Made by a program: the position numbers and the translations under genes. Shown here one piece after another: positions 23,503 to 42,657 of a DNA stretch of 64,000 bases. Source of the DNA: Desulfosporosinus nitroreducens (GTDB taxonomy: Bacteria; Bacillota; Desulfitobacteriia; Desulfitobacteriales; Desulfitobacteriaceae); NCBI RefSeq assembly GCF_023897015.1, contig NZ_JAMHFY010000003.1, positions 62,001 through 126,000 on the forward strand, read 5' to 3'. Numbering within the stretch: position 1 is the stretch's first letter; every line of letters begins with the position of its first letter. Under the pieces are notes generated by a model. That model was not told the DNA's origin. It saw only the letters and a list, made by a program, of their open reading frames with translations, and did no database searches.

Positions 23503-23557
23503 AATGAGTGCAAAAATAATTTCGTGATTAAACGTTTAAGTTATGGAGGTGCTTATG

Positions 23558-25528
23558 ATGTACACCCAATCCGTGAAATATGTAAAAGATCCGCTTTGGG
23601 CGTGGAAAAATTTTGTCGAGAGGGGTATCGCTGATGCAGTGCTTACACGTCCAGAGATCCTAGAATCTTGGCAGCGCTGTCGGAAACTTGGCGTAAATGC
23701 TTATGATGGCATAGGTAAAGATAGATTGGATCAAAAGGAATTACAACAACTTATCCTTTTTAACTCTCAATTAGTAGAGGTAGCCAAACCCTTCATGCAT
23801 ACCGTCTACCAAAGTGTTCAAGGTTCGGGATTCATGGTTGTGATTACAGACAAGGAAGGGAGGATTTTGCACACTTGCGGAGATTCAGGGATTCTGGATA
23901 AAGCTGCAAGTACAATTCGATTTATAAAGGGTACAAACTGGTCGGAACAGGCTGTGGGGACCAACGCGATCGGGACAGCATTGGCCATGAATAAAGCCAT
24001 TCAAATTTCTGGGTCCGAACACTTTTGCCAATCACATCATTACTGGACGTGTTCTGGAGCCCCGATTCACAACTCTCTCGGGGAAATTATCGGATGTTTT
24101 GATATCTCCGGCCCTGCCGAATATGTGTATTTACATACATATGGGATGGTTGTGGCGGCGGTAGAAGCCATAGAAAATCAATTGCGGAAGGAAGAAATTC
24201 AGGAGGAAAAGAACAGAGCATATGAATTATTGAGTGCTGCAACGGAGAGTGTGACTGAAGGCTTGCTGGCCGTGGACAAGGAAGGTCGGATTATTCATAT
24301 CAATCCTGTTGCTCAAAAAATACTCGGCTTGAGCAAAAAAATAGAGACAGGCCAACTTCTAAAATCGATCCTCGGCCCTAACGAGAAGTTCAGTGAAATG
24401 GCTAAGCAACTTCTCTGGAAAACGGATGTGGAAATTGTGCAAGATCAAGGACGGGACCGAATTCATTGTACTTGTTCAGCCCGTCCATTTTCTAAGAAGG
24501 ATGGCTCAATTGCCGGTGTGGTGTTTACCTTACGGGAAATTAATAAGGTTCGCCGTTTGGTAAACATGATGGTAGGAGCTACTGCTCGTTTTTATTGCAA
24601 GGATATTATCGGGGAATCTGGAGTGATGAAAAACGCCTTGAAATTAATTTCAGTCGCTGCAAATTCCAAATCCAATGTTCTTTTGACTGGAGAAAGCGGT
24701 ACGGGGAAGGAATTGTTTGCCCAAGCGATTCACAATCACAGCAGTCGCACGGAAGGTCCTTTTGTTGCAGTAAATTGTGCAGCCCTGCCACGAGAACTTA
24801 TTCAGAGTGAACTCTTTGGATATAATGAAGGGGCCTTTACTGGAGCAAAGCGAGGGGGAAATCCAGGAAAGTTTGAACTGGCCAATGAGGGGACCATCTT
24901 TCTGGATGAAATCGGTGATATGCCCATGGAATTGCAGGTAAACCTTTTGCGGGTTTTGCAGGAGCGGAAAGTAACGAGGGTTGGTGGAGAAAAGGTAATT
25001 CCTGTTAACGTGCGAATTATTGCAGCGACCAATAAGGATCTAAAGAGGGCCGTCGAAGAAGGGCGTTTCCGAGAAGATTTGTATTACCGCTTAAATGTAT
25101 TAAGCATACAAATCCCACCCTTAAGGGAGAGAGGGAAAGATATTGAACTCTTAACCATTCATTTAATAAACATTTTCTCGGAAAACTTGGGTAAAGAGAT
25201 CGATGGAGCTGAGCAGGAGTTTTTCGAGGCCATTCGTAATTATTCCTGGCCTGGGAATGTAAGAGAATTACAAAATGCGGTGGAATATGCCATGAATGTG
25301 GCTGAGGGGGAATATCTCAGCGTTACGGATTTACCCCGCAGCATACATCGGCAGCCGAACTATTTGCAAGAAATGGGGGAGGTCATCTCATTAACAGAAA
25401 TAGAGCGGATTACTGTTGAGTCAACATTAACCCGGTTTAATGGCAATATTACCAAAACGGCAAAAGCTTTAGGAATTGGACGCAATACGTTATATGATAA
25501 GTTGAGAAAGTTGGGGGTTAGAGCATAG
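23558..25528 (+). CDS. acoR: Sigma-54-dependent activator, AcoR type
   Basis: Enhancer-binding protein of about 656 residues. N-terminal GAF domain (about 55-185, with TNAIGTALAMNKAIQISG), a PAS domain (about 220-320), an AAA+ domain (about 350-580) with Walker A GESGTGKELFAQ, the GAFTGA sigma-54 contact loop (EGAFTGAKRG), Walker B GTIFLDEIGDMP, and a Fis-type HTH at the end (TKTAKALGIGRNTLYDKLRKLG). The start ATG 23558 is 6 bases after GGAGGTG; ATG 23543 overlaps that sequence. AcoR of Bacillus has the same layout and activates acetoin dehydrogenase genes with SigL. Its presence amid six sigma-54 promoters makes it the local regulator. Confidence 0.93.
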   Translation: MYTQSVKYVKDPLWAWKNFVERGIADAVLTRPEILESWQRCRKLGVNAYDGIGKDRLDQKELQQLILFNSQLVEVAKPFMHTVYQSVQGSGFMVVITDKEGRILHTCGDSGILDKAASTIRFIKGTNWSEQAVGTNAIGTALAMNKAIQISGSEHFCQSHHYWTCSGAPIHNSLGEIIGCFDISGPAEYVYLHTYGMVVAAVEAIENQLRKEEIQEEKNRAYELLSAATESVTEGLLAVDKEGRIIHINPVAQKILGLSKKIETGQLLKSILGPNEKFSEMAKQLLWKTDVEIVQDQGRDRIHCTCSARPFSKKDGSIAGVVFTLREINKVRRLVNMMVGATARFYCKDIIGESGVMKNALKLISVAANSKSNVLLTGESGTGKELFAQAIHNHSSRTEGPFVAVNCAALPRELIQSELFGYNEGAFTGAKRGGNPGKFELANEGTIFLDEIGDMPMELQVNLLRVLQERKVTRVGGEKVIPVNVRIIAATNKDLKRAVEEGRFREDLYYRLNVLSIQIPPLRERGKDIELLTIHLINIFSENLGKEIDGAEQEFFEAIRNYSWPGNVRELQNAVEYAMNVAEGEYLSVTDLPRSIHRQPNYLQEMGEVISLTEIERITVESTLTRFNGNITKTAKALGIGRNTLYDKLRKLGVRA

Positions 25529-29336: not shown

Positions 29337-29918
29337 ATGATGAAACTGAAGGGTAAATTAGACATTGAAACATTAGGAAAGAACTGGCTAATTGAAGTAG
29401 AAGCCCATCCAGAAGAAATGAATTCGATATTCTTTGTAGGGAAGAGTGTAAATCCCAGAGACATTAGGGTAACTAAAAATTTTAACGCATTGCCTTTGTT
29501 GCTTCCTTACTGCGCAAAAAGTCCAACTTGTAAGTTTCGATATACGGAAGGGTGTGAACGTTGTGGACGTTGCGATATGGGGGAAGCTTATCAATTAGCA
29601 GAGGAGTTTGGGATGGAGCCGGTTACGATACAGAACTATGAAATGCTTGAGCAGGTTTTACAGAGTTTGAAGGAACAAGGGTGCAGTGCTTTTATTGGAA
29701 CGTGTTGTCAGACCTTTTTAACTAAACACCGGCACGATTTTGAACGTATTGGCTTACAAGGTGTACTCATTGACATTGATAATTCGACCTGTTATCATCT
29801 GGGCAAAAATAGGGAAGCCCATCAGGGGACTTTTCAAAACCAGACTCGATTAAAACTTGATCTCCTTCGCAAAGTGTTAGATAAAGTAATAGTTTCAGAT
29901 GAAGTTGGTAGAAAATAA
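29337..29918 (+). CDS. DUF116 family protein, Cys-rich
   Basis: Protein of 193 residues that matches DUF116 in its core: a Cys cluster PYCAKSPTCKFR and GCERCGRCDMG (residues about 60-83), then LAEEFGMEPVTIQN and a third Cys stretch FIGTCCQTF. The Cys spacing suggests an Fe-S or zinc site, but the biochemical function of DUF116 is unknown. DUF116 genes often sit near lipoate and radical SAM genes, consistent with this locus. Either ATG 29337 or 29340 could be the start, with TAGGTAAT upstream. It ends before a terminator and the acoA control region. Confidence 0.75.
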   Translation: MMKLKGKLDIETLGKNWLIEVEAHPEEMNSIFFVGKSVNPRDIRVTKNFNALPLLLPYCAKSPTCKFRYTEGCERCGRCDMGEAYQLAEEFGMEPVTIQNYEMLEQVLQSLKEQGCSAFIGTCCQTFLTKHRHDFERIGLQGVLIDIDNSTCYHLGKNREAHQGTFQNQTRLKLDLLRKVLDKVIVSDEVGRK

Positions 29919-30593: not shown

Positions 30594-31556
30594 GTGGCGC
30601 TTAGTAAAGAACAAATGCTTGATTTATATCGTCAAATGCGTATGATCCGTGAATTTGAAGAGACCGTGGCCAAATTTTTTTCACAAGGTCAAATTCCTGG
30701 TTTTGTTCACCTGTACATTGGTGAAGAGGCTGTGGCTACCGGAGTCTGTGCGAACTTAGAAAAACAGGACTATATCGCCAGTACTCATCGGGGGCATGGG
30801 CATGGGATTGCCCGTGGAGCATCGCTTAACAAAATGATGGCTGAGATTTTCGGTAGGGCCGACGGAGAATGTAAAGGAAAAGGCGGTTCCATGCATATTG
30901 CCGATGTAGAACTAGGTTTTCTTGGCGCGAATGGAATTGTGGGTGCAGGTTTACCTTTAGCAACCGGGGCAGGTTTTGCCGCTAAATATATGAAGACTAA
31001 TGGAGTTGCGATCTGCTTTTTTGGGGACGCATCATCGAACCGCGGTACATTCCATGAGTCATTGAACATGGCGAGTATTCAAAAATTGCCGGTAGTTTTC
31101 GTCAACGAGAATAATATGTACGGAATTTCGATGAGTCAGGAAAGGCATCAAAACATTACGGACATTGCAGACCGTGCAGGGTCCTACGGAATGCCTGGTA
31201 TGGTCGTTGACGGCAATGACGTTATGGCTGTCTACGAGGCAGCAGAAGAAGCTGTGAAACGTGCTCGTGCTGGCGGAGGACCCGTCTTAATTGAATGTAA
31301 AACTTATCGGCATCACGGCCATTTTGAAGGGGATCCCTGCGTATATCGGTGTGATGAAGAAGTGAACACCTGGAAAGCGAAAGATCCTTTGCCGCGGTTC
31401 GTGAACCGTTTGCAAGAAATGAAAATGGCTACAGAGGCAGAAATTAATCAAATCGATATTGAAGTTAAAAAGATAATTGCTGATGCGGTTGAGTTTGCTC
31501 AGAATAGTCCTGTACCATCTCTTGATGAACTCACGAGCGATGTTTACTGCGACTAA
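30594..31556 (+). CDS. acoA: Acetoin dehydrogenase E1 alpha subunit
   Basis: TPP-dependent E1 alpha of the acetoin dehydrogenase complex, 320 residues. The N-terminus MALSKEQMLDLYRQMRMIREF, quoted here to position 20 only, is the family start, followed by YIASTHRGHGHGIARGA, and the TPP/Mg motif is GDASSNRGTFHESLNMAS with ENN at about 145-175. GTG 30594 is preceded by GAGGAGTG. Together with AcoB it cleaves acetoin to acetaldehyde and an acetyl unit loaded onto lipoyl E2. First gene of the sigma-54-driven operon. Confidence 0.93.
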   Translation: MALSKEQMLDLYRQMRMIREFEETVAKFFSQGQIPGFVHLYIGEEAVATGVCANLEKQDYIASTHRGHGHGIARGASLNKMMAEIFGRADGECKGKGGSMHIADVELGFLGANGIVGAGLPLATGAGFAAKYMKTNGVAICFFGDASSNRGTFHESLNMASIQKLPVVFVNENNMYGISMSQERHQNITDIADRAGSYGMPGMVVDGNDVMAVYEAAEEAVKRARAGGGPVLIECKTYRHHGHFEGDPCVYRCDEEVNTWKAKDPLPRFVNRLQEMKMATEAEINQIDIEVKKIIADAVEFAQNSPVPSLDELTSDVYCD

Positions 31557-31580: not shown

Positions 31581-32552
31581 ATGGCAGAAAAGACGTATTC
31601 CCAAGCGATTAATGAGGCCCTCGAAGAAGAAATGCGTAGGGATGAGAAAGTTTATATATTAGGAGAAGATGTTGGAGCCTTCGGTGGGTGTTTTGGAGTA
31701 ACAACAGGGCTTCTTGAAAAATTCGGTGCTGAAAGAGTGTTGGATGCTCCGATCTCTGAGACTGCGATCATGGGTTCAGCTGTAGGGGCTGCAGTCGCTG
31801 GTTTACGCCCAGTTCCAGAAATTATGTTTGTAGACTTCGTAGGTGTCTGTCTAGATGAGTTGCTTAACCAAGCGGCAAAGATGCACTATATGTTTGGTGG
31901 AAAGGCAAAGGTACCGCTGACGTTAAGGATGGCCGGCGGGGCCGGAGTGGGTGCAGCGGCCCAACACTCACAAAGCCTGGAAGCATTTATGTGCCATATT
32001 CCAGGGATTAAAGTAGTTATGCCTGCGACTGCAGCAGATGCCAAAGGTTTGTTGAAATCGGCCATCCGTGATGATAATCCGGTCGTATTCTTAGAGCATA
32101 AAGCCCTTTATGGGGCAAGTGGGGAAGTCCCGGAAGGGGAGTATACTATTCCACTTGGCAAGGCGGATATCAAACGGGAAGGAAAAGATGTCACGATCTT
32201 AGCCTATTCTATGATGCTTCATAAAGCGTTAGCGGCTGCGGAAACCTTAGCTCTAGAGGGAATCGAAGCAGAAGTGATAGATCCTCGTACGCTTGTGCCG
32301 TTTGATAAGGAAACGTTGTATAAATCAATAGAAAAAACCGGACGACTGGTTATCGTGCATGAAGCTGTCAAACAGGGAGGATTTGGAGGGGAAATCGCAG
32401 CAATGGTTGCTGAAGAATGTTTTGATTCTCTCGATGCATCAATTAAAAGGGTAGCGGCACCCTTTACCCCTATTCCTTTTGCATCGAACCTGGAAGCGGC
32501 CTATATACCGGATGAGGCTAAAATTATAGAAGCGGTGAAATCCTTTTTCTAG
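31581..32552 (+). CDS. acoB: Acetoin dehydrogenase E1 beta subunit
   Basis: Transketolase-like E1 beta, 323 residues: YSQAINEALEEEMRRDEKV start, GEDVGAFGGCFGVTTGL, DAPISETAIMGSAVGAA, and the C-terminal domain with EAVKQGGFGGEIAA. Length and block order are standard for AcoB/PdhB. ATG 31581 follows AAGGGGTGAG. It completes the TPP active site with AcoA, which starts 24 bases upstream of it. Confidence 0.94.
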   Translation: MAEKTYSQAINEALEEEMRRDEKVYILGEDVGAFGGCFGVTTGLLEKFGAERVLDAPISETAIMGSAVGAAVAGLRPVPEIMFVDFVGVCLDELLNQAAKMHYMFGGKAKVPLTLRMAGGAGVGAAAQHSQSLEAFMCHIPGIKVVMPATAADAKGLLKSAIRDDNPVVFLEHKALYGASGEVPEGEYTIPLGKADIKREGKDVTILAYSMMLHKALAAAETLALEGIEAEVIDPRTLVPFDKETLYKSIEKTGRLVIVHEAVKQGGFGGEIAAMVAEECFDSLDASIKRVAAPFTPIPFASNLEAAYIPDEAKIIEAVKSFF

Positions 32553-32632: not shown

Positions 32633-33658
32633 ATGATTGCAGGAATTATTGCCAATCCCGCTTCAGGAAAAGATATCCGCCGTTTGGTGGCTCACGCCAC
32701 GGTCTTTGATAATCAGGAGAAAGTGAATTTGATCCGGAGAATCTTGCTCGGGCTTCAAGCGGCAGGGGTTCAAAGGGTCTGGTTTATGCCAGATTATTTT
32801 GGCTTCTACGAGCGGGCTTTAGATGTTTTCAGCGGTGAGAATCAATTAACCATGGAGACAAAGCTCTTACCCATGCAGTGGAAGGCGAATCAAGAGGATT
32901 CGCAGTTGGCAGCAGCCAAAATGGTAGAAATGGGTGTTAGTTGCTTGGTAACCCTAGGTGGTGACGGAACGAACCGAGTTGTATCTAAAGGAGCCGGGGA
33001 GGTTCCTATTATGCCTGTTTCTACAGGAACTAATAATGTTTTCTCAGTTATGGTGGAAGGAACCATAGCGGGATTGGCAGCTGGTTTAGTTGCGACAGGT
33101 GCGGTAGAACAAGAGTATTCTCTTATTCAGACCAAAAAGCTGATTATCTATATGAACGGTAAAGCGGTGGATATAGCCTTAATAGATGCTGTTGTGCTAG
33201 CTGAGCAGTTCGTCGGTTCCCGGGCCATTTGGGACATTGGTAAGATCCGGCAGATTGTGGCTACGTGCGGCGAGTCCTTTCATATTGGTATCGCGGCAAT
33301 TGTCGGTGCCCTGCATCCCATCAATAAGAGAGAAGCCAAGGGGATCAACTTAATAGTCTCAGAAAGTGGCGAGCAAACGCGGGATTCTACTCAAGGCTCC
33401 TCAATCCAGGTAAAAGCAGCAGTAGGACCTGGTCTGATTCGATCGGTTCCTGTCCGCTCATACGAGTTAATAAGCCCCGGTCAGAAAGTAGTTGTACGTC
33501 ATGTCCCTTGTGTTATAGCGGTTGATGGAGAAAGGGAGATTTTTGTCGGTCCAGAAGACTGTGCCGAAGTAGAACTAGTGCAGACAGGGCCGTTTGTGGT
33601 CGATGTCAAAAGCACCTTAAACCGTGCTGCGAAAAAAGGTTTATTCATAAATCGTTAA
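32633..33658 (+). CDS. acoX: AcoX-like ATP-NAD kinase family protein
   Basis: Protein of 341 residues with the NAD kinase/diacylglycerol kinase-like signature CLVTLGGDGTNRVVSKG (about residues 100-118) and an N-terminal IANPASGKDIR. AcoX genes recur in acetoin operons of Gram-negatives and some Firmicutes, but the role of AcoX in the complex is not established. ATG 32633 follows GGAGGAGA. It lies between the E1 and E2 genes in the same orientation. Confidence 0.88.
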   Translation: MIAGIIANPASGKDIRRLVAHATVFDNQEKVNLIRRILLGLQAAGVQRVWFMPDYFGFYERALDVFSGENQLTMETKLLPMQWKANQEDSQLAAAKMVEMGVSCLVTLGGDGTNRVVSKGAGEVPIMPVSTGTNNVFSVMVEGTIAGLAAGLVATGAVEQEYSLIQTKKLIIYMNGKAVDIALIDAVVLAEQFVGSRAIWDIGKIRQIVATCGESFHIGIAAIVGALHPINKREAKGINLIVSESGEQTRDSTQGSSIQVKAAVGPGLIRSVPVRSYELISPGQKVVVRHVPCVIAVDGEREIFVGPEDCAEVELVQTGPFVVDVKSTLNRAAKKGLFINR

Positions 33659-33709: not shown

Positions 33710-35302
33710 ATGGCACAAATTATGCTTATGCCCAAATTAGGTTTAACAATGAAAAAAGGAAAAATAGTAAGCTGGCTAAAAAACGAAGGGGAGGCGGTTG
33801 CCCTAGGAGAAGCTCTCTTAGAGGTGATGACGGAAAAAGTAAATATTAAAGTTGAATCACCTTATAATGGAGTACTTTATAAGATTATCGGTGCTCCAGG
33901 CTCGAACTATCCGATCTCAGTTCCGCTTGCTGTTTTGGCGGAAGAAGGGGATGGTGCCGCTGCATTAGAAGCCGCTCTCGATGAGGCGAAAAGTGTTTTA
34001 CAGGCGGCACTAGCAGGTGGGAGTGACGACGCAGAGAAGAAGAAAGAAGCAAAACCTGTTAAGCCGTTTGGGGTTTTTGCTGGTACTGGTAAGGTATCCC
34101 CTCGTGCGGCTAAACTCGCCGATAAAGAAGGCGTTGCGCTTGGATTAATTAATGGCAGTGGTCCAAATGGCAAGGTTGTTGAAGAAGATGTTTTAAATTA
34201 CATCGCTCAGGTCAAGGGAGAGACAACTTCCGAACTGCGTCCCATTGATCCTCAGAGCATGCGGGGCGTCATAGCGGATCGAATGATTAAGAGTCGGAGA
34301 GAGGCTGCCCATGTCACCCTCATGAAAGAAGTGGATATGACCTCATTGAAAGATGTTCGGGAGCAATTAAATGCGTTGGGTGCTGACAAACGAGTAAAAT
34401 TCTCCTTTACAGATTTCCTTGTTAAGTTTACGGGACAGGCTTTAGCGGAATTCCCGCTTGTGAACTCGCGGAGCACTGATAAGGAAATTGAATTAGCCAA
34501 ATCGATCAATGTTGGGGTAGCTGTCGCCTTGGAAGAGGGGCTCGTCGTTCCCAATGTGAAAAATGTTCCGATTCTTACGCTTGAACAAATTTCGGCTAAA
34601 ATTAAAGACTTGGCAGCGCGAGCTCGCAATTCTGAACTTGACCCGTCAGAGATAGAACAAGGGACGTTTACGATTACTAATTTGGGGGCTTACGGAGTGG
34701 AGGGCTTTACACCCATTATTAATCGGCCGGAAACCGCCATTCTCGGTGTTGGAACGATAAGACAGAAACCAATCATGGTTGATAGTCGCTTAGAAAATCG
34801 TTCTTTTATGACGCTCAGCCTTTCTCTGGATCATCGGATCATCGACGGTTCACTCGCTGCAGACTTTTTAGGCCGTCTTATAGAGATGTTGGAAAATCCC
34901 TATCCTTGGTTCCAGTTACAGCCACAAGGCAATGACGATCTTCTCATCAAGACCGGAGGCATAGAAACACCTCACGATCTATTGGAGGCGTTTTCCGGTG
35001 GGTTGGCAGAGCTGAAAGAAGATGCCCCAGAATTGGCAATTGGTTTTGAAAGCCTCATGGCACCGGTTTTTTGCGAAGGTGAATTGGGGATCATGGAAAA
35101 AGAATTAATGGCGGTGGCCGTCGCCATTTATGGCAAATGTGAGTACTGTATTGCTGCTCATGTTTATAATGCCATGAATGCTGGAGCATCTGGTGATCAA
35201 GTAATGGAGGCTGCTGGAGTCGCTGTTGCTTTTGGAGGCGGTCCAGCAATGGCTTATACCGTAACAAAAGTTCGTGAATGCGTCAAAGCTTTTGGCGGTT
35301 AA
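33710..35302 (+). CDS. acoC: Acetoin dehydrogenase E2 fused to an AhpD-like CxxC domain
   Basis: Protein of about 530 residues, longer than typical E2. Parts in order: lipoyl domain (1-78, lipoyl lysine K43 in VMTEKVNIKVESP), Ala/Lys linker, E1-binding domain (about 127-164, KVSPRAAKLADKEGV), acyltransferase domain (about 185-400 with catalytic DHRIIDG at 374-380), and an extra C-terminal domain (about 415-530). The extra domain carries E465-x11-C477-x2-C480-x3-H484 (KCEYCIAAH), the AhpD active-site pattern. In mycobacteria AhpD is a separate protein that takes electrons from the lipoyl arm of an E2. The start ATG 33710 is 10 bases after AGGAGG; an upstream frame from 33686 has none. No E3 gene follows. 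Confidence 0.93.
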   Translation: MAQIMLMPKLGLTMKKGKIVSWLKNEGEAVALGEALLEVMTEKVNIKVESPYNGVLYKIIGAPGSNYPISVPLAVLAEEGDGAAALEAALDEAKSVLQAALAGGSDDAEKKKEAKPVKPFGVFAGTGKVSPRAAKLADKEGVALGLINGSGPNGKVVEEDVLNYIAQVKGETTSELRPIDPQSMRGVIADRMIKSRREAAHVTLMKEVDMTSLKDVREQLNALGADKRVKFSFTDFLVKFTGQALAEFPLVNSRSTDKEIELAKSINVGVAVALEEGLVVPNVKNVPILTLEQISAKIKDLAARARNSELDPSEIEQGTFTITNLGAYGVEGFTPIINRPETAILGVGTIRQKPIMVDSRLENRSFMTLSLSLDHRIIDGSLAADFLGRLIEMLENPYPWFQLQPQGNDDLLIKTGGIETPHDLLEAFSGGLAELKEDAPELAIGFESLMAPVFCEGELGIMEKELMAVAVAIYGKCEYCIAAHVYNAMNAGASGDQVMEAAGVAVAFGGGPAMAYTVTKVRECVKAFGG

Positions 35303-35320: not shown

Positions 35321-36862
35321 ATGGTTGGATCTTTTCACCCCACGTATCTTCTTGACCTCGGGAAAGCGGACTATAAACCGGTTTGGGAACTTCAGAAGAA
35401 TTTACAAAATCTCAGGATTAGAGGTCAGGTCGCGGATAGCTTTATCTTGGTCGAACACCCTCCCACAATCACGTTGGGAAAACTCAGCAGCAGTGAGCAT
35501 ATCTTGGTTGGTGAAGAATGGCTCGCTGCTCATGAATTCCAGGTTTTTCAGATTGAAAGGGGAGGAGATGTTACTTACCACGGTCCGGGCCAACTTGTAG
35601 GCTATCCCATCCTAGATCTCCGCGAATACAATAAGGACGTCCATTTGTTGGTTTATAAATTAGAAGAAATGCTAATACGAACGCTTTCTGCCTTTGGAAT
35701 TAAAGCGGAGCGACGTGTTGGATTTCCCGGAGTCTGGGTTGGTGAGAAGAAAATTGCCAGCATTGGTTTAGGGGTAAATCATTGGGTGACAATTCACGGT
35801 TTTGCTCTTAACGTTAACCCGGATTTGTCTCAGTTTAATACCATTGTCCCTTGCGGCTTGTCTAGTGTGCAAATGACTTCGCTTGCAGAAGAACTGAAAC
35901 GCTCGATTAGTATTTCCGAGGTCAAAAATAGGGTCATTGAAGAAATGTGTGCACTTTTTCAATGGGAAATTCGCTCTCTATCCCAGGATGTGGAGAGCTT
36001 GTTGCTTGCTGACGGTCTGAAAGCACAAGTTTTTCGACCAAGTTGGTTAACGGTTCAGGCTCCTACAGCGGGTGTGATGGAAGTAATGGAAGGAGTTTTG
36101 GCGAAGGGTCGCTTGCATACGGTCTGTGAGGGAGCATGTTGTCCCAACGCGGGTGAATGCTTTGCTTTAGGCACCGCCTCGTTTATGATTCTTGGCGACG
36201 TCTGCACCAGGAGATGCCGTTTCTGCGCAGTAAGCAAAGGGATCCCCTGTCCTCCCGATCCGGCAGAAGCGGAAGCGGTGGCGGAAACCGTCAAAACCCT
36301 TAACCTTAAACATGCTGTCATCACATCAGTGACACGGGATGATTTACCAGACGGCGGAGCAGGGGAATTTGCGCGAGTTGTGAGAGCCTTGCGACAAAAG
36401 ACTCCCCTAACAAGTATTGAATTATTGATTCCGGATTTAGCTGGATCAGAACAAGCGCTGGAAACTGTTCTTGCCGTTAAGCCAGAGGTCCTCGGTCACA
36501 ATATCGAGACGGTACCCGAGCTTTATCCTCGCGTGCAGCCGGGGGCAAATTATGAGCGTTCGTTGAAGGTTCTGGCCGATGTTAAGAGACTTGATCCTAC
36601 GATCAAAACTAAAAGTGGTTTGATGGTTGGTCTTGGAGAGAAAACACAGGAAGTTTGTCGTGTTATGGAGGACTTGCGCGCGGTAGGGTGTGATTACCTT
36701 ACTATCGGTCAATACCTGCAACCCACGCCTAAACATTTACCGGTAGAAGGGTTCATACCTCCAAGTATGTTTGCCTGGTATCGGGAGCAGGCCCTCAAAC
36801 GTGGCTTTGAAAAAGTGGAATGTGGCCCCTTAGTCCGCAGTTCCTATCATGCGCAACCATAA
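35321..36862 (+). CDS. LipB-LipA fusion: octanoyltransferase plus lipoyl synthase
   Basis: One 513-residue open frame joining two enzymes normally encoded separately. Residues 1-225 are LipB: ERGGDVTYHGPGQLVGYP (79-96), EKKIASIGLGV with K144, and catalytic C178 in VPCGLSSVQ. Residues 235-513 are LipA: C269/C274/C280 (C-x4-C-x5-C), the radical SAM C295/C299/C302 (CTRRCRFC), and the C-terminal RSSYHA. LipB moves octanoate from ACP to a carrier and LipA inserts two sulfurs. Fusion would make a single lipoylation enzyme for AcoC and the GcvH-like carriers. ATG 35321 follows AAGCGGGGATAACCG. It starts 18 bases after acoC. Confidence 0.93.
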   Translation: MVGSFHPTYLLDLGKADYKPVWELQKNLQNLRIRGQVADSFILVEHPPTITLGKLSSSEHILVGEEWLAAHEFQVFQIERGGDVTYHGPGQLVGYPILDLREYNKDVHLLVYKLEEMLIRTLSAFGIKAERRVGFPGVWVGEKKIASIGLGVNHWVTIHGFALNVNPDLSQFNTIVPCGLSSVQMTSLAEELKRSISISEVKNRVIEEMCALFQWEIRSLSQDVESLLLADGLKAQVFRPSWLTVQAPTAGVMEVMEGVLAKGRLHTVCEGACCPNAGECFALGTASFMILGDVCTRRCRFCAVSKGIPCPPDPAEAEAVAETVKTLNLKHAVITSVTRDDLPDGGAGEFARVVRALRQKTPLTSIELLIPDLAGSEQALETVLAVKPEVLGHNIETVPELYPRVQPGANYERSLKVLADVKRLDPTIKTKSGLMVGLGEKTQEVCRVMEDLRAVGCDYLTIGQYLQPTPKHLPVEGFIPPSMFAWYREQALKRGFEKVECGPLVRSSYHAQP

Positions 36863-36876
36863 CGGAGGTGGAAAGT

Positions 36877-37311
36877 ATGGCAATTATTGAAGGATACAAT
36901 TTACCCGATGACCTCTACTATACTGAAGACCATGCCTGGGTGAAAGTAGAAGGAAATTTAGTCAGAGTAGGAATGAATGATTTTGCCCAGAAATTGGCGG
37001 GAGATATCTCGTTTGTTAAACTACCCAAAGTCGGTAAAGATGTACCAATAGGTAAACTTCTCAGCTCTATGCAATCAGGAAAGTGGGCGGGACGTATCGA
37101 GGTACCAGTAACAGGTAAGATCGTGGAGGTCAATAAAGAGTTATTGCATGAACCACAAAAGATGAATCAGGACTGTTACGGAAATGGTTGGATCGCGCTG
37201 ATTGAGCCTAGCAATTTCCAGGAGGATTTAGTTAAACTCATGGATGGGGCGAAGGCCGCAGAGTGGCTTAAGGGAGAAATTGCCCGGAATGTTCCGGGTA
37301 AGGAGGGGTAG
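36877..37311 (+). CDS. GcvH-like lipoyl carrier protein 1
   Basis: Protein of 144 residues with the H-protein fold: YYTEDHAWVKVEGNLVRVG start and a hairpin presenting K69 in MQSGKWAGRIEVP, the expected lipoylation site. The surrounding GKW(A/V)GR motif differs from the ESVKAA site of canonical glycine-cleavage GcvH and resembles the lipoate-binding protein (LbpA) type. No gcvT or gcvP genes are present. ATG 36877 is chosen because CGGAGGTGG lies just upstream; a longer frame from 36820 overlaps lipBA. It sits 2 bases before the GlcD-like flavoprotein gene. Confidence 0.88.
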   Translation: MAIIEGYNLPDDLYYTEDHAWVKVEGNLVRVGMNDFAQKLAGDISFVKLPKVGKDVPIGKLLSSMQSGKWAGRIEVPVTGKIVEVNKELLHEPQKMNQDCYGNGWIALIEPSNFQEDLVKLMDGAKAAEWLKGEIARNVPGKEG

Positions 37312-37313
37312 TT

Positions 37314-38822
37314 ATGGAGCAAGCTTTGCGCGAAATATGTGGGTCAAGGGTCACAACCGACCCGTTTGAACTTGCCCCATATGCTAAAGATGTCGCCTAT
37401 GTCCCCGCTATTCTGGTCCATTTACTCACAAATCCCCTCCCTAAAGCCGTGGTTCAGCCCATCTCGGCAGAAGAAATCTCTAGTTTGATTAAGTGGGCCA
37501 AGCAAGGCAAAATACCAGTCACAGTCCGGGGCGGAGGCTCTACCGCCTATTTCAATTGCATTCCGATGAAGAGTGGTTTAGTGATTGATACGAATCGCCT
37601 CCAAGGATTTTCGGAAATCGAGCTAGACCAGGGGAACCAGAAAAAAATGGTCTGGGTCAAAGCAGGGATGACTTGGAAAGACCTCGATGACGGATTGCGA
37701 CAGCAGGGCTGTGCTGTGTGCTCTAGCCCAAGCAGTGCACCCTCCGCTACGATCGGAGGATGGGTTTCCATGGGAGGCTTAGGTATCGGCTCTGTTCCCT
37801 ATGGCTCAGTTCACGATCAAATTATGGCCATACGGGGTGTGACGGCCACAGGAGAAATCGTGGAATTATCACGACCTGACAAAAGCCCTGCAAGGAACCA
37901 GGGATCTGAGCAATCAGACTTACAATTTAATGACTTGATGGGTACTGAAGGAACCCGGGGAATTATTACGGAGATTAAGTTGTTGGTTCGTGACGTTCCA
38001 GAAAAAGAGGAACATCTACTAGCCATCTTTAATAATGCAACGGATACTGGTGTGATGATGTCTTGGCTGGGTGGAGAACATTTTATGTCTCTGTACAATG
38101 TTCATTTTAGTAGTCCAGAATTCATGATGTCGCTCCAGAAAGCTGGCTACGCTCATGAAATCCCTCCAGGAAAGTATAGCCTGGAAATTGATCTAGAGGG
38201 CAAGCGTGACGAAGTGGATCAAGCGGTTGCTCACATCAGAAAACAAGTGAAAGTTCTAGGCGGGACTTTATTGCCTGATGGAGTAGGAGCTGAGGAATGG
38301 GCCGATCGGTTTAAATCTCTCCGGCTTGAACAAACACTTCCTTCCCTCCTAGCGGCAGAAATGACACTCCCGGTCCGTAATTTTGCGGCCTTTTATGAGA
38401 GGTTAAGTAAATTGGGCCAAAAGACCAATACCCTGTGCGTTACGTATGCCCATCTCGTGTCTCCTGACATGGCCTTGGTGATGGTTCTTTATCCTTCAGA
38501 TGAACTGAACCTGATCCGTTACATCGTCGATCTGAGTTTTACCAGCAACCTTTACAAGTTGGGACACCGCTTAGGTGGTAAACCTTATGTCATTGGCTTT
38601 TGGAATACTCCCTATTTAGGAAAAATATATGACAAGGGAGAAAGAGAACGCCGCCGCCAGCGCAAACAAGCGGCAGATCCATACGCTATGCTCAATCCCG
38701 GAAAGGGCTACAATCCCCCGAATATTATTTTGAACAGCTATGTCTTTGGTTTTGCGATGATTATGATTGGTCTCTTTCGACCTATGGTCCTTAAAATCCT
38801 CAAAGGAGGCAAAGGACAATGA
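37314..38822 (+). CDS. FAD-linked oxidase, GlcD-like, with C-terminal hydrophobic tail
   Basis: Protein of 502 residues of the FAD_binding_4 (GlcD/VAO) family: VTVRGGGSTAYFN (about 72-84) and the pyrophosphate-loop block SSPSSAPSATIGGWVSMGG (142-160) are visible. Its C-terminus has about 26 hydrophobic residues (LNSYVFGFAMIMIGLFRPMV region) that may anchor it to the membrane, preceded by a positively charged segment. GlcD-like flavoproteins oxidise 2-hydroxyacids and pass electrons to GlcF-like Fe-S partners; the next gene is exactly such a partner and overlaps by 4 bases. Substrate not determined; the context favours dihydrolipoyl carriers. Confidence 0.86.
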   Translation: MEQALREICGSRVTTDPFELAPYAKDVAYVPAILVHLLTNPLPKAVVQPISAEEISSLIKWAKQGKIPVTVRGGGSTAYFNCIPMKSGLVIDTNRLQGFSEIELDQGNQKKMVWVKAGMTWKDLDDGLRQQGCAVCSSPSSAPSATIGGWVSMGGLGIGSVPYGSVHDQIMAIRGVTATGEIVELSRPDKSPARNQGSEQSDLQFNDLMGTEGTRGIITEIKLLVRDVPEKEEHLLAIFNNATDTGVMMSWLGGEHFMSLYNVHFSSPEFMMSLQKAGYAHEIPPGKYSLEIDLEGKRDEVDQAVAHIRKQVKVLGGTLLPDGVGAEEWADRFKSLRLEQTLPSLLAAEMTLPVRNFAAFYERLSKLGQKTNTLCVTYAHLVSPDMALVMVLYPSDELNLIRYIVDLSFTSNLYKLGHRLGGKPYVIGFWNTPYLGKIYDKGERERRRQRKQAADPYAMLNPGKGYNPPNIILNSYVFGFAMIMIGLFRPMVLKILKGGKGQ

Positions 38823-39988
38823 AAACGATTGAAGAACTTCGGGAGCAAATAGCCAAAACCAGTTATATTTGTGGCAGCTGCGGCAGTTGTCGTAGCGTCT
38901 GTCCCGTTTACCGAGAAATTGGTTGGGAATCCTCGGCACCTCGCAGGAAAATTGCTTTGGCCAAAGAGGTATTCCTGAAGAAAAAGGAGAAACAAGCCAC
39001 GGGTCAATACGCTCAGCGTTTGCAGGAGTGTACGTTGTGTGGTAAATGTGCGGAAATATGTGCAGCTGGGATTAAAACACGTGAGCTTTGGTTGAATCTG
39101 CGAGAAGATTTAAGGGCTCGGGGGATGGAACATCAGAACTTAACACAAATGGCTCTGCAAGTTAAAACGACCCACAATATCAGTACGTTCCCAAATGAAA
39201 ATCGCCTTGACTGGGTGGACGATTTAGATGAGGTTGAAGTAGAGGTATCCAAAGCCGGAAGTGAGGTCGCCTACTTTGTAGGATGTGTGTCTTCCTTCTA
39301 TCCGATGTCGGCCGGAATCTCTCAAAGTATTGTCAGCTTATTGGACCGAGCAAATGTTAATTATACCGTTCTAGGAAGTGAGGAATGGTGTTGTGGCTTC
39401 CCCCTCCTCGCTTCGGGAAACTCCCAACAAGTCCTTGAATTAGCCAAACACAATGTGGAAAAGGTACGCGCTCTGGGTGTCAAAACCTTAATAACGGGCT
39501 GTGCCTCCTGTTATCATACCTGGACACATGAATATCCGACGATTCTCGGGGAAGATCTTGGCTTTGAGGTGCTCCATGCTACACAGTATCTGGCTGGATT
39601 AATCCGTACAAAACAATTAGAGGCTGGCAATATAGATGAGACCGTCACTTATCATGACCCCTGCGATTTGGGTCGTAACAGTGGAATCTATGACGAGCCC
39701 CGAGAACTTTTACAGGCCATGGAGGGGGTAAACTTTGTAGAAATGCCTCATCGCCGAGAGATGGCCGACTGTTGCGGTGGGGGAGGGAATCTAGCCGCCG
39801 TAGATAAGGAGTTAAGCCAAGCGATTGCTGTGAAACGGGTACGTGAGGCTGTGGCAACTGGGGCAACTATTTTAACCTCTGCGTGCCAGCAATGTGTACA
39901 GACTTTGCAAATGGCGGCAAGACAGGAAAAATTACCACTTGAGGTCTTAGATGTTACAGAGTTATTATGGCGATCCTTGGAAGAATAG
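38819..39988 (+). CDS. Fe-S oxidoreductase with two CCG domains, GlcF/HdrD-like
   Basis: Protein of 389 residues: two 4Fe-4S ferredoxin sites (CGSCGSCRSVCP at 18-29, CTLCGKCAEICAAG around 71-84), then two CCG domains (SEEWCCGFPL with CASC, and ADCCGGGGN with CQQC). The paired CCG domains are those of GlcF and HdrD/HdrB; in heterodisulfide reductases the CCG cluster does disulfide/dithiol chemistry. Here it is flanked on both sides by lipoyl-carrier genes, so a dihydrolipoyl-oxidising role is plausible. ATG 38819 overlaps the flavoprotein stop (ATGA). Confidence 0.88.
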   Translation: MKTIEELREQIAKTSYICGSCGSCRSVCPVYREIGWESSAPRRKIALAKEVFLKKKEKQATGQYAQRLQECTLCGKCAEICAAGIKTRELWLNLREDLRARGMEHQNLTQMALQVKTTHNISTFPNENRLDWVDDLDEVEVEVSKAGSEVAYFVGCVSSFYPMSAGISQSIVSLLDRANVNYTVLGSEEWCCGFPLLASGNSQQVLELAKHNVEKVRALGVKTLITGCASCYHTWTHEYPTILGEDLGFEVLHATQYLAGLIRTKQLEAGNIDETVTYHDPCDLGRNSGIYDEPRELLQAMEGVNFVEMPHRREMADCCGGGGNLAAVDKELSQAIAVKRVREAVATGATILTSACQQCVQTLQMAARQEKLPLEVLDVTELLWRSLEE

Positions 39989-40058
39989 TGTATTCACCTT
40001 CCTGAAATAGAATAGGATCTTAAGTTTTTTGCACGATTATGATAAAGAGGGTGAGAAT

Positions 40059-40484
40059 GTGAAGGTCGGAGAGTGGCATTTCCCAGAGGAATTACTCTAT
40101 GATGAACACCATCAGTGGCTCAAAAGGGAAGGGAAAACTATCATCATTGGCTTAACCGATTACGGGCAATACACCAGGGGGGATATATTATACTTGAGTT
40201 TGCCAGAAGCCGGTACTCGGGTGAAGGCAGGAGAGGCCGTAGGTTCTCTGGAAACGGGAAAATGGGTCGGGCGTTTTTATGCTCCCCAGACAGGGGAAAT
40301 CTGTGCCGTGAACACGGAGGTTTTGAAAAACACACGCTTGATTAATCAAGATCCCTATGTCCACGGATGGCTCTTTAAAATAAAAATTCATTCCGCTGAA
40401 GGGCAAATGCTTATGACTGTAGAGGAACTCAAGGTGTGGTTAGAGCTGGAGTTAGAAAGGGAGAAGGCCTGTTGTGATGTCTAA
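40059..40484 (+). CDS. GcvH-like lipoyl carrier protein 2
   Basis: About 141-residue H-protein-fold carrier with lysine K68 in SLETGKWVGRFYAP. It keeps the GKWVG motif of carrier 1 but is otherwise divergent, with a C-terminal helical extension ending in ...EREKACCDV. GTG 40059 is preferred over the TTG at 40029 because GAGGGTGAG lies just ahead of it. It follows the CCG protein gene and overlaps the first radical SAM gene by 8 bases, so carrier and maturation proteins are translationally coupled. Confidence 0.82.
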   Translation: MKVGEWHFPEELLYDEHHQWLKREGKTIIIGLTDYGQYTRGDILYLSLPEAGTRVKAGEAVGSLETGKWVGRFYAPQTGEICAVNTEVLKNTRLINQDPYVHGWLFKIKIHSAEGQMLMTVEELKVWLELELEREKACCDV

Positions 40485-41583
40485 CACTCACGTTGATTGT
40501 TCCCAAGGTGAACTTAACCACGAGATCGAGGATATGGGCTTAGAAAGTCCGGAGGTTATCCAAACCAGTCTTGCGGCCGCGATGACACTCGGTTTAAAGG
40601 GCGGTATTTTCTATCGCAATGCCAAGCTCACCTGCTTAAACTTGCTCTTGACTTATCAAGAGGGCTGCCAGGGGCGCTGCGGTTATTGTGGTTTGGAACA
40701 AAAACGTTCAGAAAAAACCAAAGGGACAACGTTCATCCGAGTTGCTTGGCCTACCTACTCTTTTGATCTCATTCTCGAACGGACGAAACAATATCAAAAC
40801 TCTTTAAAACGAATTTGCCTATCTATGATTACCCATAAGAGAGCCTTTGAGGATTCGTTAAATCTTGTATCCCGTTTACACAGTGAAGTCAATTTGCCGA
40901 TTAGTATTCTCTGTGCCCCGACGCTGATTCACAAGATGGAAGACTTGCAAAAATTAAAAGAGGCTGGTGCCGATCAACTTGGGGTATCGATTGATACAGC
41001 TACCTCAGAAATCTTTCAAAAATACCGAGGAAAAGGTGTACGGGGACCTCATCAATGGGATCATTACTGGGAGATTTTAAGAAAGGGTATTGATGTTTTT
41101 GGAAAAGGTAAGGTCAGTGTTCATCTTATTGTCGGCCTTGGAGAAAGCGAACAAGAGATGGCCATGGCTTTTCAGCAAGTCCACGATTTAGGCGCGGTGG
41201 TTCATCTGTTTTCGTTCTATCCCGAACCGGGGAGTGCTCTGGCTGAGAAAAAGGCACCTTCCATTGGTCAATACCGCCGTATGCAAATAGCTCGTTATGT
41301 AATTATGAATGATTTAGCGAATGCTAAAACAATGCGTTTTAATAGTTCTGAACAAGTTTGTGATTTTGGGCTGGACGTAGAACCTTTTGTCGCTTCCGGC
41401 CAACCTTTTCGTACGTCCGGCTGTCCAGGGCATGATGGAGAAACTGCCTGTAATCGGCCCTATGGCAATGAACGTCCAGGTACTACCCTGGCCAATTATC
41501 CTTTTATTCCTAATATACGAGATGTGGAGCAAATAAGGGATGAACTCTACGCTGGGCTCATGGAGGGTGTTGAACAATCGTGA
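40477..41583 (+). CDS. Radical SAM protein, LipS1/LipS2-type lipoyl synthase component
   Basis: Protein of about 368 residues, biotin-synthase-related radical SAM (COG2516-like). The cluster motif is C65-x3-C69-x2-C72 (numbered from GTG 40474; GCQGRCGYC), followed by a TIM-barrel and C-terminal region with RTSGCPGHDGETACNRPYG, which could hold further clusters. Two such proteins together are lipoyl synthase in Thermococcus and in sulfur-oxidiser lipoate clusters. Start ATG 40477 (GTG 40474 possible) with GGGAGAAGG upstream. The partner is the next gene. Which of LipS1 and LipS2 this is, I cannot say. Confidence 0.75.
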   Translation: MSNTHVDCSQGELNHEIEDMGLESPEVIQTSLAAAMTLGLKGGIFYRNAKLTCLNLLLTYQEGCQGRCGYCGLEQKRSEKTKGTTFIRVAWPTYSFDLILERTKQYQNSLKRICLSMITHKRAFEDSLNLVSRLHSEVNLPISILCAPTLIHKMEDLQKLKEAGADQLGVSIDTATSEIFQKYRGKGVRGPHQWDHYWEILRKGIDVFGKGKVSVHLIVGLGESEQEMAMAFQQVHDLGAVVHLFSFYPEPGSALAEKKAPSIGQYRRMQIARYVIMNDLANAKTMRFNSSEQVCDFGLDVEPFVASGQPFRTSGCPGHDGETACNRPYGNERPGTTLANYPFIPNIRDVEQIRDELYAGLMEGVEQS

Positions 41584-41679
41584 ATTCTAGGGATGACCTG
41601 TCGAAACTGGCAATCTCTACTAGGGATCTAATAAAGTTAAAATGCTCCGAACTTCGCGAAAAGAAAGAATGAAGAAAAG

Positions 41680-42657
41680 ATGATAGAGAAGACTATTAAC
41701 GAAGGTTGGACGGAATTTGATCAGAGCTCAAACTTACCTAATCTACTAAAAGAAGCTTGGAATCTGCGCCGAAAAGCCTTCCCTGATTTTATCCGCTTTG
41801 CAGTTCCCGGCGGGAGGCACTATGATGGTAAGAATTTTTGCAATTCAGGTCAATTCCTCAATGTGAGTATCACGGGAATGTCTTGTGCTCTTCTATGTGA
41901 CCATTGTCAGGGGAAAATGCTGAAGGGAATGATTCCAGCCCCAACACCAGAAATACTACAGGAATTGGGAACTAAACTGCGGGAAAAAGGTGTTACAGGG
42001 CTTCTTATAACCGGAGGATGTAATCATGAGGGGCAGGTCCCCCTTAAGCCCTTTTTATCGGTTATTACTTATCTAAAATCCCTGAACTTTACAATTCATG
42101 TTCATACGGGCTTAGCAGATAAGGAAACAGCAGTGGGGTTGAAACGGGCGGGAGTTGACAAGGTTTTTTTGGATATGATGGGTGATGCAGCTACAATTCG
42201 CAGGGTTTATCATCTTGACCGCAACCCTAGTGCCTATATAAATGCTTTAGAAATTCTGCTGGCCGAGAATTTAGATGTCGTCCCGCATGTGGTTCTCGGC
42301 TTAAACTACGGGAAAATCATGGGAGAAGAAAATCTCATTCAAACGTTAAGTGACTATCCTTTGGAAACGTTGGTGTTAGTTGCTTTACGAGCCGTGCCGG
42401 GTACTCCGATGGGCGGAGCCAGTGGACCAGATCCGGCTGAGATCGTCAGGATCACCGCTCAAACTCGTCTCTTGAATCCTTCGCTAAAACTAAGTTTTGG
42501 TTGTGCTCGACCCTATACTCAAAAGGCTTGGTTGGAGAGGGGGCTCATAGCGGCGGGTATCAATACCTTGGCTTTTCCACTGGATGAGACTATAGACTTC
42601 GCTTTAGCGTGTGGGCTGGAACCGATTATGAATGAGATGTGCTGTGGTGGACTATAG
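41680..42657 (+). CDS. Radical SAM protein, second LipS1/LipS2-type component
   Basis: Protein of 325 residues, COG1856-like homologue of biotin synthase. The cluster motif is C69-x3-C73-x2-C76 (SCALLCDHCQGKM). HxHTGL, PHVVLGL and the C-terminal CGLEPIMNEMCCGGL with three further Cys point to additional Fe-S binding. It pairs with the preceding gene, as in two-protein lipoyl synthases. Transcribed with it, 96 bases apart. ATG 41680 follows AAAGAAAGAATGAAGAAAAG, a weak site. Confidence 0.75.
   Translation: MIEKTINEGWTEFDQSSNLPNLLKEAWNLRRKAFPDFIRFAVPGGRHYDGKNFCNSGQFLNVSITGMSCALLCDHCQGKMLKGMIPAPTPEILQELGTKLREKGVTGLLITGGCNHEGQVPLKPFLSVITYLKSLNFTIHVHTGLADKETAVGLKRAGVDKVFLDMMGDAATIRRVYHLDRNPSAYINALEILLAENLDVVPHVVLGLNYGKIMGEENLIQTLSDYPLETLVLVALRAVPGTPMGGASGPDPAEIVRITAQTRLLNPSLKLSFGCARPYTQKAWLERGLIAAGINTLAFPLDETIDFALACGLEPIMNEMCCGGL

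Follow-up and report, generated by a model that had tools for sequence, protein, structure and literature searches.

Lipoyl-linked electron transfer in described systems

E1/E2 complexes are normally taken to include an E3 subunit as a matter of course. In Mycobacterium tuberculosis, Lpd, DlaT (SucB), AhpD and AhpC form a peroxidase chain in which AhpD is reduced by lipoylated E2 (Bryk 2002, cited in PMC8945050). Acetoin dehydrogenase clusters typically contain acoX; that of Pelobacter carbinolicus, acoABCSL, is accompanied by acoX and includes acoL, and LarG has been proposed as a lipoyl carrier in Pelobacter electron transfer (PMC3543383). Lipoyl carriers of the LbpA type are essential for Hdr-like sulfur oxidation, CCG motifs are the binding sites of the non-cubane cluster in disulfide reductases (PMC6067878), and LipS1 and LipS2 mature LbpA-type carriers (PMC10332631).

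Here we describe a gene of Desulfosporosinus nitroreducens in which an E2 subunit and an AhpD-like domain form a single protein, within an operon that has no gene for E3. It lies in a window of 64,000 nucleotides (contig NZ_JAMHFY010000003.1, positions 62,001 to 126,000), to which the coordinates below refer unless another contig or locus is named. The first-pass annotation of this DNA had noted that AhpD can accept electrons from the lipoyl domain of an E2, and this is documented for M. tuberculosis (PMC8945050, citing Bryk 2002). No published E2-AhpD fusion was found in the open-licence literature; an earlier account in a subscription journal is possible.

An E2 subunit that continues into an AhpD-like domain

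The gene at 33710-35302 (plus strand, as are all window features below) starts at an ATG at 33710 preceded by an AGGAGGT-like site and encodes an E2-CMD fusion protein of 530 residues, as delimited by its open reading frame and by Pfam and NCBIfam matches. Residues 5-74 (33722-33931) form a lipoyl domain (PF00364, Biotin_lipoyl), whose lipoyl lysine, K43 (33836-33838), lies in the motif TEK and is invariant across aligned relatives. Residues 128-162 (34091-34195) form a peripheral-subunit (E3/E1) binding domain (PF02817, E3_binding, E 1.9e-9), and residues 181-398 (34250-34903) the acyltransferase core (PF00198, 2-oxoacid_dh, E 1.4e-77), which contains DHRIIDG at 374-380, the HxxxDG motif being HRIIDG at 375-380. 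With all three domains present, the protein is an E2.

The remainder, from about residue 421 to residue 530 (34970-35299), matches AhpD/CMD domains in Pfam, NCBIfam and solved structures. Pfam CMD (PF02627) covers residues 440-517 (35027-35260) with 55.9 bits (cut-off 23; E 4.4e-15), NCBIfam ahpD_dom (TIGR00778) scores 41.5 bits against a cut-off of 27.8, and the nearest solved structure is 5dik, an AhpD (E 1.9e-13). The NCBIfam search also revealed peroxidase-like similarity to TIGR04169. The first-pass description of a complete E2 followed by an AhpD-like tail is thus borne out by two profiles above cut-off, and DHRIIDG, E465, C477, C480 and H484 all stand where it had placed them; only the start of the domain shifts, from 34980 to about 34970. 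An AhpD fold is predicted for the tail from profile and sequence similarity. AlphaFold, working from an alignment of five near-identical rows (the window and four close relatives), gave a pLDDT of 33 for the full protein and, from the same rows, a low-confidence all-helical model with a pLDDT of 50 for the tail.

The tail carries the signature E-x11-C-x2-C-x3-H, formed by E465 (35102-35104), C477 (35138-35140), C480 (35147-35149) and H484 (35159-35161), with the cysteine pair reading C477-E-Y-C480. These four residues are invariant in 28 of 28 aligned CMDs, whether fused, E2-adjacent or standalone. Tyr479, replaced by Phe in one relative (L017), stands at the position that we take to correspond to His132, the second active-site histidine of M. 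tuberculosis AhpD; four of the five AhpD relay residues are therefore kept, and at the fifth the domain departs from a true AhpD. Between congeners, the tail has a dN/dS of 0.06-0.13, comparable in magnitude to that of the lipoyl and core domains, and purifying selection acts on the CMD domain.

Distribution of the fusion and of its unfused relatives

Within the host family, the full-length fusion is present in eight genomes besides that of the host, from congeners and one member of another genus; four named loci among the host-family fusions probably duplicate some of these genomes. Five more genomes, in four further families, also have the full-length protein (G168, G082, G124, G385 and G220), which brings the conserved fusion to 14 genomes from no fewer than five Bacillota families. 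Maximum-likelihood trees recover the fused proteins as a single clade, whether built from the E2 part (support 100/100) or from the CMD part (100/99). A frameshift, assembly or sequencing artefact as the origin of the fusion is ruled out by these independent full-length examples.

The same domain is also found as a gene of its own. A plain E2 followed by a gene for a CMD protein of 113-116 residues is present in G024, a member of the host genus, and in G430, G114, G337 and G231, and the encoded CMD proteins are 33-50% identical to the tail. The loci at which a CMD gene immediately follows an unfused E2 are L063, L076, L082, L087 and L121; in G152 (L171) the separate CMD frame is interrupted after 52 codons. 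Some CMD relatives contain one in-frame TGA (G114:C1:215073-215393, G337:C43:17218-17532, G265:C1:109223-109522 and others) and are possibly AhpD-like selenoproteins.

The nearest other CMD clade, sister to this one, is standalone and adjoins a gene for a lipoyl-E3 fusion, an E3 with an N-terminal lipoyl domain of its own, in 8 of 12 loci, being the very next gene in seven. Such pairs are found in many Bacillota, at L074, L075, L077, L078, L079, L081, L083 and L086, with a CBS/sigma-54 activator close by in L074 and L075, and may constitute an NADH-lipoyl-AhpD reductase unit. Three arrangements (fused E2, E2-adjacent gene and lipoyl-E3-adjacent gene) hence associate CMDs of this group with a lipoyl domain, and comparative genomics ties the clade to lipoyl proteins through genes that adjoin unfused E2s or lipoyl-E3 fusions.

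An acetoin-dehydrogenase-like operon

The E2-CMD gene is preceded by genes for E1 alpha (AcoA/PdhA-like, 30594-31556; PF00676, and TIGR03182 at 393.7 bits for a cut-off of 393.85), E1 beta (31581-32552; PRK09212 above cut-off) and a protein of NAD-kinase fold (32633-33658; PF01513), which is named AcoX-like from its position and fold. It is followed by a LipB-LipA fusion (octanoyl transferase/lipoyl synthase, 35321-36862; Pfam and NCBIfam), a first GcvH-type lipoyl carrier (36868-37311), a GlcD-like FAD oxidoreductase with a hydrophobic C-terminal segment (37314-38822; Pfam and NCBIfam), an HdrD-like Fe-S protein (38819-39988) with two ferredoxin motifs and two complete CCG motifs (C-x34/35-CC-x35/36-C-x2-C), and a second GcvH-type carrier (40029-40484). 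Pfam and motifs identify the HdrD-like protein and both carriers, which keep the lipoyl lysine, in QSGKW and ETGKW, respectively. The last members are a LipS2-like lipoyl synthase component (40474-41583; NF053743, full length, 240.5 bits, cut-off 270) and then a LipS1-like one (41680-42657; NF053742, full length, 210.3 bits, cut-off 230). Gaps from E1 alpha through LipS2 are small, or the genes overlap. A possible regulator, an AcoR-like sigma-54 PAS activator, is encoded at 23543-25528.

The operon contains no gene for E3 (AcoL in the Pelobacter cluster), and no peroxiredoxin gene was seen in it. It is acetoin-dehydrogenase-like (E1 alpha, E1 beta, AcoX and E2-CMD) without E3, and the AcoX gene and AcoR-like activator indicate that acetoin is probably the substrate.

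Several features of the neighborhood deserve separate mention. Two lipoate assembly routes share this one operon, the LipB-LipA fusion (35321-36862) and the LipS2/LipS1 pair (40474-42657), and the loci of relatives additionally encode LplA and a GGR-like flavoprotein, possibly LipT. DUF116 is encoded here by a separate gene upstream of the operon (29337-29918); in relatives (L069, L070, L071 and L076) it is fused to lipoate ligase, as checked with Pfam in L070, or to LipA in L069, and these fusions suggest a role in lipoylation. A membrane anchor on the GlcD-like protein is not proposed: its C-terminus has a mean hydropathy of 1.8 in the window, but most relatives reach only 1.2-1.4 anywhere. 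At L076:4500-8589, an acetoin-type E1/AcoX/E2/CMD cluster is linked to HdrABC-like genes rather than HdrD/GlcD, and its HdrA has an FlpD domain.

E3 and Hdr-type genes across AcoX-linked loci

Among 398 Bacillota genomes surveyed, 33 have an AcoX relative, and these yielded 27 AcoX-linked E2 loci, the one in G152 being joined across two contigs by inference. A CMD is present in 11 of them (six fused, five separate, one of the latter broken), E3 in seven, and neither in nine. CMD and E3 never occur together in the 27 loci (hypergeometric P 0.013), and HdrD/GlcD or HdrABC genes accompany nine of the 11 CMD loci versus none of the 16 others (Fisher 1.2e-5); both tests ignore phylogeny and, as the CMD loci represent one or two clades, count few independent events. 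CMD loci, and no CMD-less ones, carry either HdrD/GlcD with GcvH-type lipoyl carriers or HdrABC. Four CMD-less genomes lack an HdrD relative at E 1e-15 anywhere. G385 and G220 have the CMD with no HdrD/GlcD/GcvH in the cluster; in G385 (L072, L172) the operon has a divergent HdrD-like gene (31%) about 6 kb away.

The view that CMD strictly replaces E3 at each AcoX locus is rejected by the nine loci with neither, which also mean that an absent E3 gene does not by itself require a substitute.

The host genome encodes a single E3, at C55:147417-148784, on a different contig from the operon, and a single E2, the one described here. The gcvP gene is also on C55, about 38 kb from E3, and this E3 may serve glycine cleavage. 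It could serve the E2-CMD complex as well, since the E2 retains its subunit-binding domain. The first-pass claim that the complex lacks E3 consequently stands for the operon and fails for the cell; a genome without E3 is rejected for this host, given the full-length gene on C55. The thiol-disulfide relay that the same annotation had placed on the complex is partly supported, by the redox signature, by the operon without E3, by the documented reduction of AhpD by a lipoylated E2 and by the link of the CMD clade to lipoyl proteins. The E3 gene on C55 and the retained E3-binding domain are the main weakness of the E3-replacement reading.

Elsewhere, E3 is present in 16 of the 17 CMD genomes searched. 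In G385, which is 99% complete, no E3 was found at E 1e-45, and the fused E2-CMD is the sole E2 match. G015 has two operons, one encoding E1, E2 and E3 with a plain E2, and the other an E2-CMD without E3.

Proposed mechanism and alternatives

The fused AhpD-like domain apparently stands in for the E3 subunit, which would normally pass the electrons to NAD. We give about an even chance to the reading that this protein is the E2 of a complex of acetoin-dehydrogenase type, and that its AhpD-like dithiol domain assumes, wholly or mainly, the re-oxidation of the lipoyl group for which E3 is normally responsible. We are more tentative about the wider reading, a little short of even, that the complex is E3-independent, with the E2 arm re-oxidized through the attached relay and electrons passing to lipoyl carriers and an Hdr-type oxidoreductase rather than to NAD.

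The cycle would begin with E1 loading an acyl group and two electrons onto the lipoyl arm at Lys43, after which the E2 core would hand the acyl group to CoA; both steps are established chemistry of these families. The next step could be reduction of the CMD disulfide, C477-C480, by the dihydrolipoyl arm, with protons putatively relayed by E465 and H484, as the conserved residues and the M. tuberculosis precedent suggest. Gene linkage points to GcvH1 or GcvH2 as the small mobile lipoyl carrier that would receive electrons from the reduced CMD cysteines, and this linkage, along with the complete CCG motifs, makes the GlcD/HdrD flavo-iron-sulfur pair the candidate for re-oxidizing that carrier. 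In some relatives, linked genes suggest that HdrABC may do so instead. Besides AhpD of M. tuberculosis, described counterparts for this putative route are the LbpA carriers of Hdr-like sulfur oxidation (PMC6067878), their maturation by LipS1/LipS2 (PMC10332631) and the LarG carrier proposed for Pelobacter (PMC3543383). The last acceptor might be menaquinone or another compound.

The alternative that survives best, although we consider it unlikely, is an antioxidant side branch, in which the complex is turned over by the C55 E3 and the CMD draws electrons off the lipoyl group toward peroxide, either directly or via a peroxiredoxin. M. tuberculosis AhpD, reduced by lipoylated E2, feeds AhpC (PMC8945050), and the host E3, the retained E3-binding domain and the TIGR04169 similarity are all consistent with it. 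Nevertheless, the operon showed no peroxiredoxin gene, CMD and E3 genes never meet in AcoX loci, where the CMD is instead found with HdrD/GlcD/GcvH, and G385 has the fusion with no E3 found. Desulfosporosinus is, moreover, an anaerobe.

Less probable again is that the CMD works in the oxidative cycle with thioredoxin or some other soluble disulfide protein as its electron acceptor, and that HdrD/GlcD and the GcvH proteins make up a lipoyl pathway of their own, encoded in this operon. The fusions of G385 and G220, with no HdrD/GlcD/GcvH in the cluster, would fit this arrangement, but the linkage of CMD to Hdr-type genes is strong elsewhere (9/11 versus 0/16). A structural role in trimerization or docking, with no redox function, is improbable: both E2 cores and known AhpDs form trimers, so that a fused trimer is geometrically plausible, but E465, C477, C480 and H484 do not vary among members, be they fused, adjacent or standalone, and in some genomes the domain has a gene to itself. 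The least probable reading, that the CMD aids the making or maturation of lipoyl groups rather than turnover of the complex, draws on the wealth of lipoate assembly genes in the operon (LipB-LipA, LipS1 and LipS2), but the standalone CMD clade adjoins lipoyl-E3 fusions in loci without matches to lipoate assembly genes.

Implications and comparison with known systems

If re-oxidation by the fused domain is correct, electrons would be left at dithiol potential on a carrier protein rather than on NADH, changing how much energy anaerobes obtain from oxidizing acetoin or 2-oxoacids, and AhpD proteins would be linked to central catabolism, beyond peroxide defense. It would further suggest that, beyond sulfur oxidation, GcvH-type proteins and Hdr modules belong to a broader network of lipoyl electron carriers.

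The arrangement resembles the M. tuberculosis chain in that AhpD cysteines there exchange with an E2-borne lipoyl group (Bryk 2002, cited in PMC8945050), and the same CxxC-His-Glu signature is present here. It differs in that AhpD is a separate protein there and is fused to E2 here, and in that E3 is part of the M. tuberculosis chain, which leads from NADH to peroxide, whereas this operon has neither E3 nor AhpC and electron flow is probably oxidative. In addition, His132 of that AhpD has Tyr479 as its counterpart.

With the acetoin dehydrogenase system of P. carbinolicus, the locus shares E1 alpha, E1 beta, AcoX, E2, a lipoyl synthase and an AcoR-like sigma-54 activator (PMC3543383). Unlike that system, its operon is without AcoL (E3), its E2 bears the CMD, and GcvH, GlcD and HdrD are added. 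The lipoyl-E3 fusions of Bacillota that have an AhpD-like gene beside them (L074, L077 and others) are similar in pairing a sister CMD clade with a lipoyl domain; in them, however, the lipoyl domain is on E3, the CMD is unfused, and no E1/E2 genes adjoin.

The sHdr-LbpA system of sulfur oxidizers likewise links GcvH-like lipoyl carriers to Hdr-type CCG proteins and to LipS1/LipS2 (PMC6067878, PMC10332631). Its input is protein-bound sulfur, E3 is proposed to re-oxidize LbpA, and it has a multi-gene sHdr core. Here, in contrast, the input is an E1/E2 complex, that core is absent, and the Hdr part is HdrD/GlcD, with one HdrD-like and one GlcD-like gene only in the cluster.
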